A DNA stretch of 64,000 bases, from the NCBI RefSeq assembly GCF_013391805.1, contig NZ_CP058364.1:1984501-2048500 (forward strand), read 5' to 3'. The first letter of the stretch is position 1; the number at the start of each line of letters is the position of its first letter. Shown piece by piece: positions 6,097 to 11,546 of this stretch. Below the pieces are notes generated by a model. The model saw only the letters and a program-made list of their open reading frames with translations. It did no database searches and was not told the DNA's origin. The translations under genes were made by a program, and so were the position numbers. This DNA comes from Galbibacter sp. BG1 (GTDB taxonomy: Bacteria > Bacteroidota > Bacteroidia > Flavobacteriales > Flavobacteriaceae).

Positions 6097-7470
6097 TTAT
6101 TCTATCTTATTTAAGTCACAATCATACTCATCTCTTTTAGGAGAATTTTCGGAATATATTCCTAAACCTTTTGTGTTATCATTTTTCGTGTATACAAAAA
6201 TCTCGTTTTTAGAGAAAGGGATTAATATTTTATTATTACTATTTAGAATTGAATATTCATCGTTTTTTTTGACAACTATGTTATTTTCACAAAATAATTC
6301 AACTTCATCATAAATTATGGGAATCAAAATTTCATTATGAATATTAATGATACCTTTTTTTTCATTCATTTCCACAATAATCAATTTGTTACTTGGAAGG
6401 TAATCATGTACTATATAGTCGTATTGATAAGGGAATAACATGTTTAAATTATCATTGTCAATTAAGGTTTCTTTGTTGTCTTTTCGTATTATGCTGAAAT
6501 CCTTGGAGTATTGAGAGAATTTATCGAAATTATATTCTTCATTAAGTTTTTTTGACCGGGTGTCATAAATTTGTTTGAATCCATTTTTACCAAGAATAAT
6601 TTTTTCAGGAAATTGCATATTTAAACTTTCATATTTAACTGGAATAATATTGTTTTCTTGAATATCTATTATACCCCATTTCCCTTTGTTCTTAACAATC
6701 AGAATATCTTCAGGAAGGTTACTGTGATAGTATATCCTTTTATATTTTATTTCATCATATTTAGGTTCAATTACAATATTATTACTGTCGTCTAAGATTC
6801 CCTTTTTTTTATTTTCAGAAAAAACGTAATAATTATCATATTTAGATGTACGAAAGACATTATTTCCATTAATATTGTATTTACTTATTTTACCATCAAT
6901 TAAGTAACTAATTTTGTCGTCTTTTTTTAGCTCAAACAAATTATTTTTTAATATAATTTCATTATATACTATTGGGACTACTAATTCACCTTTTTTGTTT
7001 AGGATACCATATTTTCCATTTTTTTTAACATGGATTTCCGCTCCTTTTTGAGTAGAAAATTTTATTTCATCGAATTCAGGTTCTAGTGTTATATCATCAG
7101 TGTATAAACCTAATTTATTTTCTAATGTTACAACCCAATATTGTCCATAGACATTTTCAATAGTATCATATTCTATTGGAATAAGAATTTTCTCAAATCG
7201 AGCAGATACGAGACCAACCTTATTTTCTTTTTTTACTACATAATTTGATGAGAAACCTGATGCATAAGAGATTTCATCAATATTTGATATGAATGGATCA
7301 CCATTTTTGTTTGTAAGTATATATTTCCCATTTAATTGAGTAATATAATAGTCCTGGTCTATACTTCTAGGAGCTTCTTCTACTGTTGTTGCACTTTCCT
7401 CGATAACTTGTGATTGGATGCAGTTACTGTTTAAAATTAATATAATGATCAGACTTAATAAATTTTTCAT
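6097..7470 (-). CDS. Secreted WG-repeat protein inserted in the trp operon
   Basis: The 457-residue protein has an N-terminal signal peptide (hydrophobic LLSLIIILILNSNC) and at least eight degenerate WG/KWGI-type beta repeats. Examples are NKVGLVSARFEKILIPIEYD, GKYGILNKKGELVVPIVYN, KKKGILDDSNNIVIEPKYDE and GKWGIIDIQENNIIPVKYE. WG repeats form surface-exposed beta structures of mostly unknown role, often in envelope proteins. A cysteine follows the hydrophobic stretch, but the LNSNC sequence is a poor lipobox. Nothing here suggests a step in tryptophan synthesis. The gene is visibly more AT-rich than its trp neighbours and separates trpD from trpC on the same strand, which suggests insertion into the operon. 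Confidence 0.85.
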   Translation of the reverse strand: MKNLLSLIIILILNSNCIQSQVIEESATTVEEAPRSIDQDYYITQLNGKYILTNKNGDPFISNIDEISYASGFSSNYVVKKENKVGLVSARFEKILIPIEYDTIENVYGQYWVVTLENKLGLYTDDITLEPEFDEIKFSTQKGAEIHVKKNGKYGILNKKGELVVPIVYNEIILKNNLFELKKDDKISYLIDGKISKYNINGNNVFRTSKYDNYYVFSENKKKGILDDSNNIVIEPKYDEIKYKRIYYHSNLPEDILIVKNKGKWGIIDIQENNIIPVKYESLNMQFPEKIILGKNGFKQIYDTRSKKLNEEYNFDKFSQYSKDFSIIRKDNKETLIDNDNLNMLFPYQYDYIVHDYLPSNKLIIVEMNEKKGIINIHNEILIPIIYDEVELFCENNIVVKKNDEYSILNSNNKILIPFSKNEIFVYTKNDNTKGLGIYSENSPKRDEYDCDLNKIE

Positions 7471-9643: not shown

Positions 9644-11161
9644 TTATATATCTTCCGCCATTTCCATTGCTTTTTTTAAAGCTCCTAATTTATTATACGT
9701 CTCTTGTAACTCGCTTTCTGGTTTAGATTCTGAAACAATTCCTGCTCCTGCCTGAAAATAAAGTTCATGATTCTTACTTAAAAAAGTACGGATCATTATA
9801 GCGTGGTTAAAATTACCTTCAAAATCCATAAAACCGATGGCACCACCATAATAATCGCGGTTGGTAGCTTCGTATTTATCTATGAGTTTTAATGCCATGT
9901 ATTTTGGGGCACCGCTTAATGTGCCAGCCGGGAAAGTATCTGCAACTACTTGCATGGTTGGTATTTCTTTCTTTTTTTGTCCGGTTACCTTGGAAACTAA
10001 ATGGATAACATGGGAAAAAAATTGTACTTCCCGATAGGTTTCCACTTCTACGGTATTTCCATTTCTGCTGAGGTCGTTTCTCGCCAAATCAACCAACATT
10101 ACATGTTCGCTATTCTCTTTTTCGTCTACCGCAAGTTGTTTGGCCAGTTCTGCGTCTTTTTCATCGTTTCCAGTACGTTTAAATGTACCGGCAATAGGAT
10201 GAATTTCTGCTTTATTATCTTTTACGATGAGTTGCGCTTCTGGTGAGCTGCCAAAAATTTTAAAGTTTCCGTAGTCGAAATAGAATAAATAGGGTGACGG
10301 ATTTATAGATCGTAAGGCACGGTATACATTAAATTCGTCTCCCTTGAATTTTTGGGCGAAGCGACGACTTAGTACCAATTGAAAAACATCCCCGCGATGG
10401 CAGTGTTTCTTGGCTTCTTCTACAAGCTGTTTGTAATCGTCGTCTTTTAATTTAGATTCTGGGTTCCCCACTTTGGAAAAATTGTAGGAAGCAAAGTTTT
10501 TAGCCTGTAATAATTGATGTATTTCATCAATATTGTTTTCGCAATCATAACAATGACAAAATATATAAGCTTCGTTTTTAAAGTGGTTGATGGCTATTAT
10601 GTTTTGATAAACGGCGTAATAGATATCTGGGATTTCTAAGGAATCTTCCTTTTTTGTAATTTCAATATCTTCAAAATATTGAACTCCATCGTAAGCAATA
10701 TAGCCAAACAGACCATTGTTTATGAATTTAAAATCATTCTTTTCCGACTTAAAATGTTTGGTGAAGTCTTCTATTACAGCAGGTACATGGGTTTCTTTTG
10801 TAATCTTTTCTTTGGAAGCGGCTCCATCTGGGAATGTCTTTGAAATCTCATTTTTTTCAACCTTTATGGTAGCAATGGGATTAAAGCAGATGTAAGAAAA
10901 GCTATTATCGTTGGCATGGTAATCGCTACTTTCCAATAAAATACTATTCGGATATCGATCGCGTATTTTTAGGTAAACGCTTACCGGTGTTATGGTGTCG
11001 GCAAGTATTTGTTTGTAATTGGTTTTTAAATGATAGGCCTCTCCCCCCGCCCCCCTCTCCGAAGGAAAAGGGGAGTTAATTTGTCTATAATTTTTATTTT
11101 TTTTCATAAGTCTCTTAGATTTTTGAAATATTTCATTCTTTTTAGACTCCCCTAATTTCAT
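9644..11161 (-). CDS. trpE: Anthranilate synthase component I
   Basis: TrpE converts chorismate to anthranilate and is normally feedback-inhibited by tryptophan. The chorismate-binding domain is complete: DVFQLVLSRRFAQ, GSSPEAQLI, IHPIAGTFKRTG, LVDLARNDLSR and AGTLSGAPKYMA. The tryptophan-sensing LLESSDYH element is at the N-terminus of the conserved part. The family start (HLKTNYKQILADTITPVS) is preceded by about 40 extra residues. The last of these (INSPFPSERGAGGEA) are a translated palindromic repeat. No start codon lies between the repeat and the conserved region, so the repeat is read. ATG 11161 gives 505 aa; ATG 11107 (MKKNKNYRQ) is an equally possible start. Confidence 0.95.
   Translation of the reverse strand: MKLGESKKNEIFQKSKRLMKKNKNYRQINSPFPSERGAGGEAYHLKTNYKQILADTITPVSVYLKIRDRYPNSILLESSDYHANDNSFSYICFNPIATIKVEKNEISKTFPDGAASKEKITKETHVPAVIEDFTKHFKSEKNDFKFINNGLFGYIAYDGVQYFEDIEITKKEDSLEIPDIYYAVYQNIIAINHFKNEAYIFCHCYDCENNIDEIHQLLQAKNFASYNFSKVGNPESKLKDDDYKQLVEEAKKHCHRGDVFQLVLSRRFAQKFKGDEFNVYRALRSINPSPYLFYFDYGNFKIFGSSPEAQLIVKDNKAEIHPIAGTFKRTGNDEKDAELAKQLAVDEKENSEHVMLVDLARNDLSRNGNTVEVETYREVQFFSHVIHLVSKVTGQKKKEIPTMQVVADTFPAGTLSGAPKYMALKLIDKYEATNRDYYGGAIGFMDFEGNFNHAIMIRTFLSKNHELYFQAGAGIVSESKPESELQETYNKLGALKKAMEMAEDI
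11038..11074 (-). repeat. GC-rich palindromic repeat, copy 3 (inside trpE)
   Basis: On the minus strand TCCCCTTTTCCTTCGGAGAG leads into a G-rich tail ending GGGGAGAGG. It matches copy 2 closely and is translated in frame near the N-terminus of TrpE. Confidence 0.75.
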
Positions 11162-11202: not shown

Positions 11203-11230
11203 AAAGGCTTGTCGTGATAGACAAGCCTTT
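11203..11230 (-). terminator. trp attenuator terminator
   Basis: A perfect 11-bp stem (AAAGGCTTGTC with GACAAGCCTTT) with a 6-nt loop TATCAC runs into a T tract on the minus strand. It lies 32 bases after the WWW leader peptide and 41 bases before the longest trpE start, which is where a premature terminator should be. Confidence 0.85.
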
Positions 11231-11269
11231 GTGTATTTTAAATATACTATAGGGAAGCTAGCTCACGAC
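11211..11269 (-). promoter_or_regulatory. Candidate antiterminator pairing of the trp leader
   Basis: On the minus strand GTCGTGA (11269-11263), which overlaps the last sense codons and the stop of the leader peptide, is exactly complementary to TCACGAC (11217-11211) in the loop and 3' arm of the terminator. The two structures exclude each other. A ribosome stalled on the three Trp codons would leave GTCGTGA free; a ribosome reaching the stop codon would cover it. The complementarity is visible; the mechanism is inferred. Confidence 0.6.
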
Positions 11270-11319
11270 GTTTTACGTAAGTTAGACCACCACCAAGTAT
11301 TTCTTCTAATTGTTCTCAT
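11263..11319 (-). CDS. trpL: trp operon leader peptide with tandem Trp codons
   Basis: The 18-codon ORF MRTIRRNTWWWSNLRKTS contains three consecutive TGG codons at positions 9-11. It starts at ATG 11319, with GGAG five bases upstream, and ends in TGA at 11263-11265. It sits upstream of trpE and is followed by a strong terminator hairpin. Tandem Trp codons in a short ORF before trpE are the hallmark of translation-coupled attenuation, as known from enterobacteria. Low charged tRNA-Trp would stall the ribosome and permit read-through into the operon. Confidence 0.85.
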   Translation of the reverse strand: MRTIRRNTWWWSNLRKTS

Positions 11320-11327
11320 TTATACTC

Positions 11328-11357
11328 CAAATATAGAAATCAATTTTAAACTTTCAA
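11328..11357 (-). promoter_or_regulatory. trpLp: Candidate trp promoter (Bacteroidota type)
   Basis: The minus strand has TATATTTG (11335-11328), matching the Bacteroidota -7 consensus TAnnTTTG. A TTG lies 19 bases upstream (11357-11355), as expected for the -33 element. The box ends only 8 bases before the leader ATG, so the transcript would have almost no 5' UTR. That leaves the assignment uncertain. Confidence 0.5.
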
Positions 11358-11415
11358 ACAAAAAAGAACAATTACCACTAAATTTATATAGGTTGTTAAA
11401 ATGTTTGCAAAAAAA

Positions 11416-11438
11416 ATAGGAGCCGTTTGGGCTCCTAT
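11416..11438 (-). terminator. Terminator of the marR-nitroreductase-yceI operon
   Basis: The 9-bp stem ATAGGAGCC with GGCTCCTAT and a 5-nt loop runs into an eight-T tract on the minus strand. It lies between the yceI stop and the trp promoter region. The 100 bases between it and yceI hold nothing recognisable. Confidence 0.8.
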
Positions 11439-11546
11439 TCTTCAATTTTTCTTTTTCATTTCCTCCAAGAGGATTCAATTTTTTCCCATACCATCACGAG
11501 TTTTTATACTCTTTTATGCGATATCGGGTTCTATGGGTTTCTTTAT

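Follow-up and report, generated by a model that had tools for sequence, protein, structure and literature searches.

The DNA upstream of trpE raises the question of whether a short open reading frame (ORF) with consecutive tryptophan codons and the terminator that follows it act together as a ribosome-mediated attenuator and, if so, which pairing would keep the terminator from forming. An earlier note, made from the sequence alone, had proposed such an attenuator on the grounds of an 18-codon ORF with WWW at codons 9-11, a 32-nt spacer and an 11-bp terminator, all of which are present on the minus strand. It had further pointed to an exact complementarity of GTCGTGA to TCACGAC, and this is borne out at 11269-11263 and 11217-11211. 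The features of the locus, in positions of the window (the whole 64 kb stretch of DNA that was analysed), are as follows.

11328..11335, minus strand: putative −7 promoter box of the Bacteroidota type, TATATTTG (TAnnTTTG), with 8 nt between it and the leader ATG (from the sequence)
11263..11319, minus strand: leader peptide ORF MRTIRRNTWWWSNLRKTS*, 18 codons (from the sequence and an ORF scan)
11287..11295, minus strand: the putative sensor, three consecutive TGG (Trp) codons, codons 9-11 (from the sequence; conserved in relatives)
11244..11300, minus strand: leader hairpin, the stem of RF01692 (from the minimum-energy fold and alignment to the Rfam model)
11263..11269, minus strand: GTCGTGA, the candidate antiterminator core, which closes the ORF and includes its stop codon
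11203..11230, minus strand: intrinsic terminator with an 11-bp stem, a 6-base loop and a T run after it (from the sequence and fold)
11211..11217, minus strand: target TCACGAC of the core, made up of the last four loop bases (TCAC) and of GAC, with which the 3′ arm begins
9644..11161, minus strand: trpE, presumably the first controlled gene (from Pfam domains)

The tryptophan leader and its operon

The terminator stem is perfect (AAAGGCTTGTC/GACAAGCCTTT, loop TATCAC) with a fold of −17.7 kcal/mol (z = −6.3), and the spacer of 32 nt between the stop codon of the leader ORF and the terminator stem occupies 11262-11231. In the leader hairpin the Trp codons pair with the segment after the stop codon and the upper stem holds part of the antiterminator core, the whole leader fold having a z of −4.7. 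Scanning the 64 kb window for ORFs of less than 150 nt with an ATG, GTG or TTG start, one ORF per stop, gave 13 ORFs encoding WW. Among these, MRTIRRNTWWWSNLRKTS is the only one that encodes WWW and the sole one with a terminator after it.

Positions 11339-11220 match Rfam RF01692 (Bacteroid-trp) over the full model length (1-131), scoring 79.1 bits where the cut-off is 49, and RF01692 was the sole trp leader among the Rfam matches up to E = 5 at the locus. Judged by this match, the element of the window is a member of an already catalogued family, so the element itself is not new. Over the leader hairpin four positions are marked as non-standard in the RF01692 alignment, and the minimum-energy fold is a hairpin over the same segments. 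Inspection for repeats near the leader gave one imperfect inverted pair.

The TAnnTTTG motif, the consensus given in PMC9723704, occurs in the 60 nt preceding the leader ATG in 146 of 149 relatives, compared with 6% of shuffled upstreams. The distances between box and ATG in the relatives fall into two main groups of about 4-12 and 14-22 nt, and five lie further off. If the box works, the leader ORF of the window genome would be nearly leaderless. Leaderless mRNAs are described as uncommon in flavobacteria, at 5.5%, in PMC9723704, and PMC6847099, which describes Bacteroidota as lacking Shine-Dalgarno sequences, gives a leader of more than 10 nt for 87% of predicted transcripts. After the upstream YceI-like gene there is a hairpin with a T run (11415-11439, minus strand), which suggests that the leader starts from a promoter of its own.

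By Pfam domains the operon has the order trpE, trpG, trpD, WG-repeat gene, trpC, trpF, trpB and trpA, down to 2561, and the gene of the WG-repeat protein lies at 6097-7470 in the trpD/trpC interval. The trpE ORF opens 41 nt past the terminator and homology begins about 165 nt past it, most trpE homologues aligning from about residue 42-47. The longest trpE ORF has some 41 N-terminal residues (11036-11161) that are unmatched in most homologues and that contain SPFPSERGAGGEA, encoded by a G/C-rich stretch. A similar trpE stretch, SSSPLERGPGGEA, is present in one congener (L008) and absent from another (L020). A genome repeat family was considered for the GC-rich stretches that separate the leader from conserved trpE sequence and was rejected, each of two patterns having one match in the genome, at the window's own place (with at most three and at most two mismatches, respectively).

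Elsewhere in the same genome a leader ORF, MTIYTSHHHHFHFFAQAR, is found before hisG (L195, G000:C1 ~3391600-3391740), followed by a terminator with a 13-bp stem, and by eye GCUCAGGCG past the His run can pair with CGUUUGAGU of the 5′ arm and loop. Before pheA (prephenate dehydratase) the leader ORF MLANGYIWNFYFFFFYFFNKRTGRL is likewise followed by a terminator (L196, G000:C1 ~2136640-2136780), and here CGGGAC past the Phe run is, again by eye, complementary to GUCCCG of the terminator 5′ arm.

Conservation and register of the predicted antiterminator pairing

Relatives within RF01692 were gathered as 156 loci, 30 and 100 of them from the upper part of the 208-genome family list and 26 from the phylum draw, so composed that weak matches are under-represented; 149 could be parsed and 7 unresolved ones were dropped. 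The parser demanded TGGTGG and a terminator, and the terminator is thus present in all 149 by construction. The Trp run was WWW in 145 loci and WW in 4. A core was recognised by script in 143 of the 149, and in 139 of these it starts 17-19 nt past the last Trp codon. In 139 of all 149 loci the leader's best run of complementarity to the terminator also starts 17-19 nt past that codon, and in 141 it takes the loop and 3′ arm. At each of the six central positions core and target form standard pairs in 142-148 of the 149 loci.

The placement of the core relative to the ORF varies. It ends in the stop codon in 83 of the 149 loci, is internal to the ORF and read in frame +1 in 29, and lies wholly after the stop in 26; 3 loci have it in frame 0 and 2 in frame 2, with 6 unrecognised. 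Since the core is kept in any frame or after the stop, it is the RNA rather than the peptide that is kept, and the GTCGTGA match is thereby not explained by conservation of the peptide.

Because the core is nearly invariant within RF01692, there is little covariation and the difference between own and swapped pairs of leader and terminator is small (−9.79 vs −9.43 kcal/mol), the own value being reached in 0 of 20000 permutations. Double changes are few, with one genus carrying GUCGCAA/UUGCGAC. The flanking pair does covary; over 135 loci the counts are 61/21/10/43 (Fisher 2e-10, with kinship left uncorrected). When leaders were shuffled, 13 of 2000 shuffled versions of the window's own leader equalled its leader-terminator duplex, and for sets of loci 0 of 100 set means from own-leader shuffles reached the observed value in each of three sets. 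Single loci had p ≤ 0.05 against such shuffles in 93 of 149, 14 of 20 and 31 of 59 cases, and many are not significant alone.

Outside the family of the window, own pairs at 59 loci averaged −13.25 kcal/mol compared with −9.87 kcal/mol for swapped pairs, with 0 of 5000 permutations, and with a single locus from each of 24 families the count was again 0 of 5000 for all five draws. The control, the sequence preceding the ORF on its 5′ side, gave 992 of 5000. In the 55 loci that belong to neither f1 nor f2, the best run took the 5′ arm and loop in 24, the loop and 3′ arm in 13, the 5′ arm in 8, the 3′ arm in 5, both arms in 4 and the loop in 1, and for the four f2 loci it took the 5′ arm and loop in 3 and the 5′ arm alone in 1. 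With restricted targets and one locus per family, 429 of 5000 permutations were counted for the 5′ arm, 21 of 5000 for the 3′ arm and 0 of 5000 for the loop extended by three bases each way. When all 59 loci were used, the corresponding counts were 0, 137 and 0 of 5000, and the 5′ arm alone therefore also carries signal there. The apex of the hairpin is the common denominator of the predicted pairing across families.

Among the f2 leaders, L172, L173, L176, L178 and L179 have similar peptides in which WWW is followed by SNSSSGL. Leader L057 has a different peptide, and it matches, together with the four parsed f2 leaders, the 5′ arm or the 5′ arm and loop, nearer to the classical arrangement.

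The earlier note had regarded the 7-bp antiterminator as inference on account of its shortness. It is conserved in 149 relatives, and complementarity is kept over 24 other families. In the leaders of relatives, to which the note had looked for confirmation, the short ORF with tandem TGG is indeed conserved and the flanking pair covaries around a core that itself hardly changes.

Distribution of tryptophan leaders before trpE

Of 299 genomes from the family of the window, 208 had an RF01692 match at E ≤ 0.001 (184 of them above the cut-off), compared with only 30 of 296 genomes taken phylum-wide, of which 28 belong to the same family, one to the same order and one to the same class; both scans were run with the stricter filters of Infernal, by which weak matches are lost. 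Among 27 genomes without an RF01692 match trpE was found in 21, with upstream DNA for 20, and a WW leader ORF with a terminator preceded it in 18 of these 20.

Class-wide, a WW or WxW leader ORF and a terminator were present in 78 of 94 trpE upstreams of at least 250 nt, a non-random sample of which 20 came from genomes picked for their absent RF01692 match, compared with 4 of 770 block-shuffled trpE upstreams. Four of 98 trpE loci had less than 250 nt upstream and were left out of the 94, and one of them (L194) is still in the set of 59 loci above. The remaining 16 of the 94 comprise 5 with such an ORF and no terminator by the criteria used, and 11 without such an ORF within 600 nt. At one of these 11, L247, an RF01692 leader is situated about 1.3 kb upstream of trpE (L247/L038, G525), and another gene may come first in the operon. 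For the other classes 20 of 39 trpE matches were sampled; a WW/WxW leader with terminator was found in 8 of these 20 upstreams, and two more had a WWW ORF without terminator.

How widely such attenuation occurs in Bacteroidota had been left as a question in the earlier note, and by the counts within and outside the class such leaders are common before trpE. This type of switch seems to be commoner in the phylum than the RF01692 catalogue shows, and the sequences compared give evidence of a regulation that is widespread in the phylum and of which RF01692 detects only a part.

Nascent folding, rival readings and known systems

Nascent folds were computed for three ribosome states with assumed footprints and with transcripts that end four bases into the 3′ arm. 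In the 149 loci the loop was held by the leader (P > 0.5) in 148 with a ribosome at WWW, in 42 with no ribosome, in none with a ribosome at the stop and in 16 with a ribosome at WWW and the leader shuffled. The 59 loci outside the family gave 33, 9, 0 and 6, respectively. Since the loop is leader-held in 42 of 149 loci without a ribosome, the leader hairpin does not shield the core everywhere. For the window, when four to seven bases of the 3′ arm have emerged, the computed probability of the antiterminator is 0.99 for a ribosome stalled at WWW and at most 0.03 without a ribosome, and with a ribosome at the stop the core is covered. A second short helix, of AGCUU with AGGCU of the terminator 5′ arm, is predicted in the stalled nascent fold of the window.

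The stalled antiterminator value of the window drops to 0.15 once nine bases of the 3′ arm are out. With the complete hairpin, the terminator is favoured in all three ribosome states, with means of 0.90-0.96; in the stalled state its mean is 0.90 and the leader holds the loop (P > 0.5) in 7 of 149 loci. Equilibrium folding is thus ruled out as an explanation of the switch, the completed terminator winning in every ribosome state. Since the finished terminator is more stable than the antiterminator, switching would be under kinetic control, and the leader would need to capture the apex while the 3′ arm is still being made.

The element is very probably a transcription attenuator, a member of RF01692, that senses charged tRNA-Trp through translation of the 18-codon leader. 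This explanation draws on the anatomy of the locus, its conservation, the complementarity across families and the nascent folding, and from these we infer the ribosome footprints, transcript start, kinetics and response to tryptophan. When charged tRNA-Trp is scarce, a ribosome would stall on WWW, melt the leader hairpin and expose GUCGUGA, which would pair with the emerging loop and the top of the 3′ arm (UCACGAC). The predicted AGCUU/AGGCU helix would extend this antiterminator and help to hold the lower stem open, the terminator would be pre-empted and trpEGDCFBA would be transcribed. When tryptophan is sufficient, a ribosome at the stop would cover GUCGUGA and the terminator would form. 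The ribosome-mediated attenuation originally proposed gains comparative support from the conserved antiterminator and from the cross-family complementarity. Of the classic model invoked with it, the mutually exclusive structures set by ribosome position recur in the computed nascent folds; the model is refined in two respects, the 7-bp helix involving the loop and no more than three bases of the 3′ arm, and the complete terminator being more stable.

Attenuation might also be real with GTCGTGA working only in the leader hairpin, its match to the loop being a by-product and read-through coming about by another pairing, such as the classical one of the post-stop segment with the 5′ arm. We consider this unlikely, even though the 5′ arm is involved in several of the results: the nascent fold of the window also pairs AGCUU with AGGCU of that arm, it is leader-paired at a mean of 0.53 when the ribosome is stalled and of 0.69 outside the family, the best match in f2 is to the 5′ arm and loop (3 of 4) or to the 5′ arm (1 of 4) and L057 matches it too, and as the only target over the 59 loci it gave −7.57 vs −6.18 kcal/mol with 0 of 5000 permutations. 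However, RF01692 leaders average −4.70 kcal/mol against the 5′ arm, which is near the −3.93 of shuffled leaders against the loop side, as opposed to −9.79 against the loop and 3′ arm, and with one locus per family the 429 of 5000 for the 5′ arm stands against 0 of 5000 for the loop with three bases on either side. A classical 5′-arm antiterminator was accordingly rejected as the principal pairing for the window's family, where there is little signal between leader and 5′ arm, and was kept as the short second helix.

Tryptophan sensing as such would be dispensable if the terminator were constitutive and the short translated ORF before it coupled translation to transcription. This is hard to reconcile with WW/WxW leaders and terminators in 78 of 94 trpE upstreams of the class vs 4 of 770 shuffled ones, and with the analogous His-rich and Phe-rich ORFs before hisG and pheA of the same genome, and it is considered very improbable. 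That the leader peptide would act in trans, as reported for peTrpL of Sinorhizobium meliloti (PMC7298713), has this precedent in its favour, but with a peptide that is not kept past WWW and the same RNA core in different frames or after an earlier stop, there is little chance that it applies here.

Beyond the attenuator of the window, we lean slightly towards the reading that an old trp attenuator is common to Bacteroidota, its antiterminator being a segment that lies about 17 nt past the Trp codons and captures the apex of the terminator prior to closure. The register would slide between lineages, with the 5′ arm and loop taken in many families and the loop and 3′ arm in that of the window; the sequence would turn over and the complementarity would stay, and RF01692 would see mainly one lineage.

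RF01692 and the element of the window are alike in their position before trp genes, the Trp-rich leader ORF, the leader hairpin and the start of the terminator. The model of 131 positions extends to the GUC at the end of the terminator 5′ arm. It does not cover the pairing between the core and the loop and 3′ arm, and it misses many leaders of this kind. Part of the gap in coverage is due to the model and not to absence of leaders, and a revised family model could annotate such leaders across the phylum. RF01692 is found in table 1 of PMC2864571 (Weinberg et al. 2010), the main text of which names Bacteroid-trp there only and is without the words tryptophan, attenuation and leader peptide. In PMC6414381 it is described as similar to the E. 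coli leader and noted before the trp operon of Flavobacterium psychrophilum. For the same species PMC9723704 reports strong clues for leader-peptide attenuation before amino-acid operons, with conserved 5′ elements before pheA and hisG that have no Rfam match; trp and tryptophan do not occur in its main text, and its candidates differ in this from the trp leader of the window.

In the main texts of the open-licence literature on attenuation and leader peptides in Bacteroidetes and Flavobacteriaceae, on Bacteroides trpE and on antiterminators that take a terminator loop, no experimental study of this attenuator was found. A description of the core-apex pairing was likewise not found in that literature and may exist elsewhere, e.g. 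in the supplement of PMC2864571. What is added here is a candidate antiterminator partner with cross-family support, together with its sliding register, and this defined partner would be directly testable by compensatory mutations.

The trp attenuator of Escherichia coli is the classical case of ribosome-mediated attenuation, and its antiterminator takes the 5′ arm of the terminator. It and the element of the window are alike in their tandem Trp codons, their terminator and their mutually exclusive leader structures, between which the position of the ribosome decides. In contrast to the 5′ arm taken in E. coli, the main helix predicted for the window consists of the loop and three bases of the 3′ arm, with a short second helix to the 5′ arm, which suggests that capture of the hairpin apex may be a workable alternative to capture of the 5′ arm.
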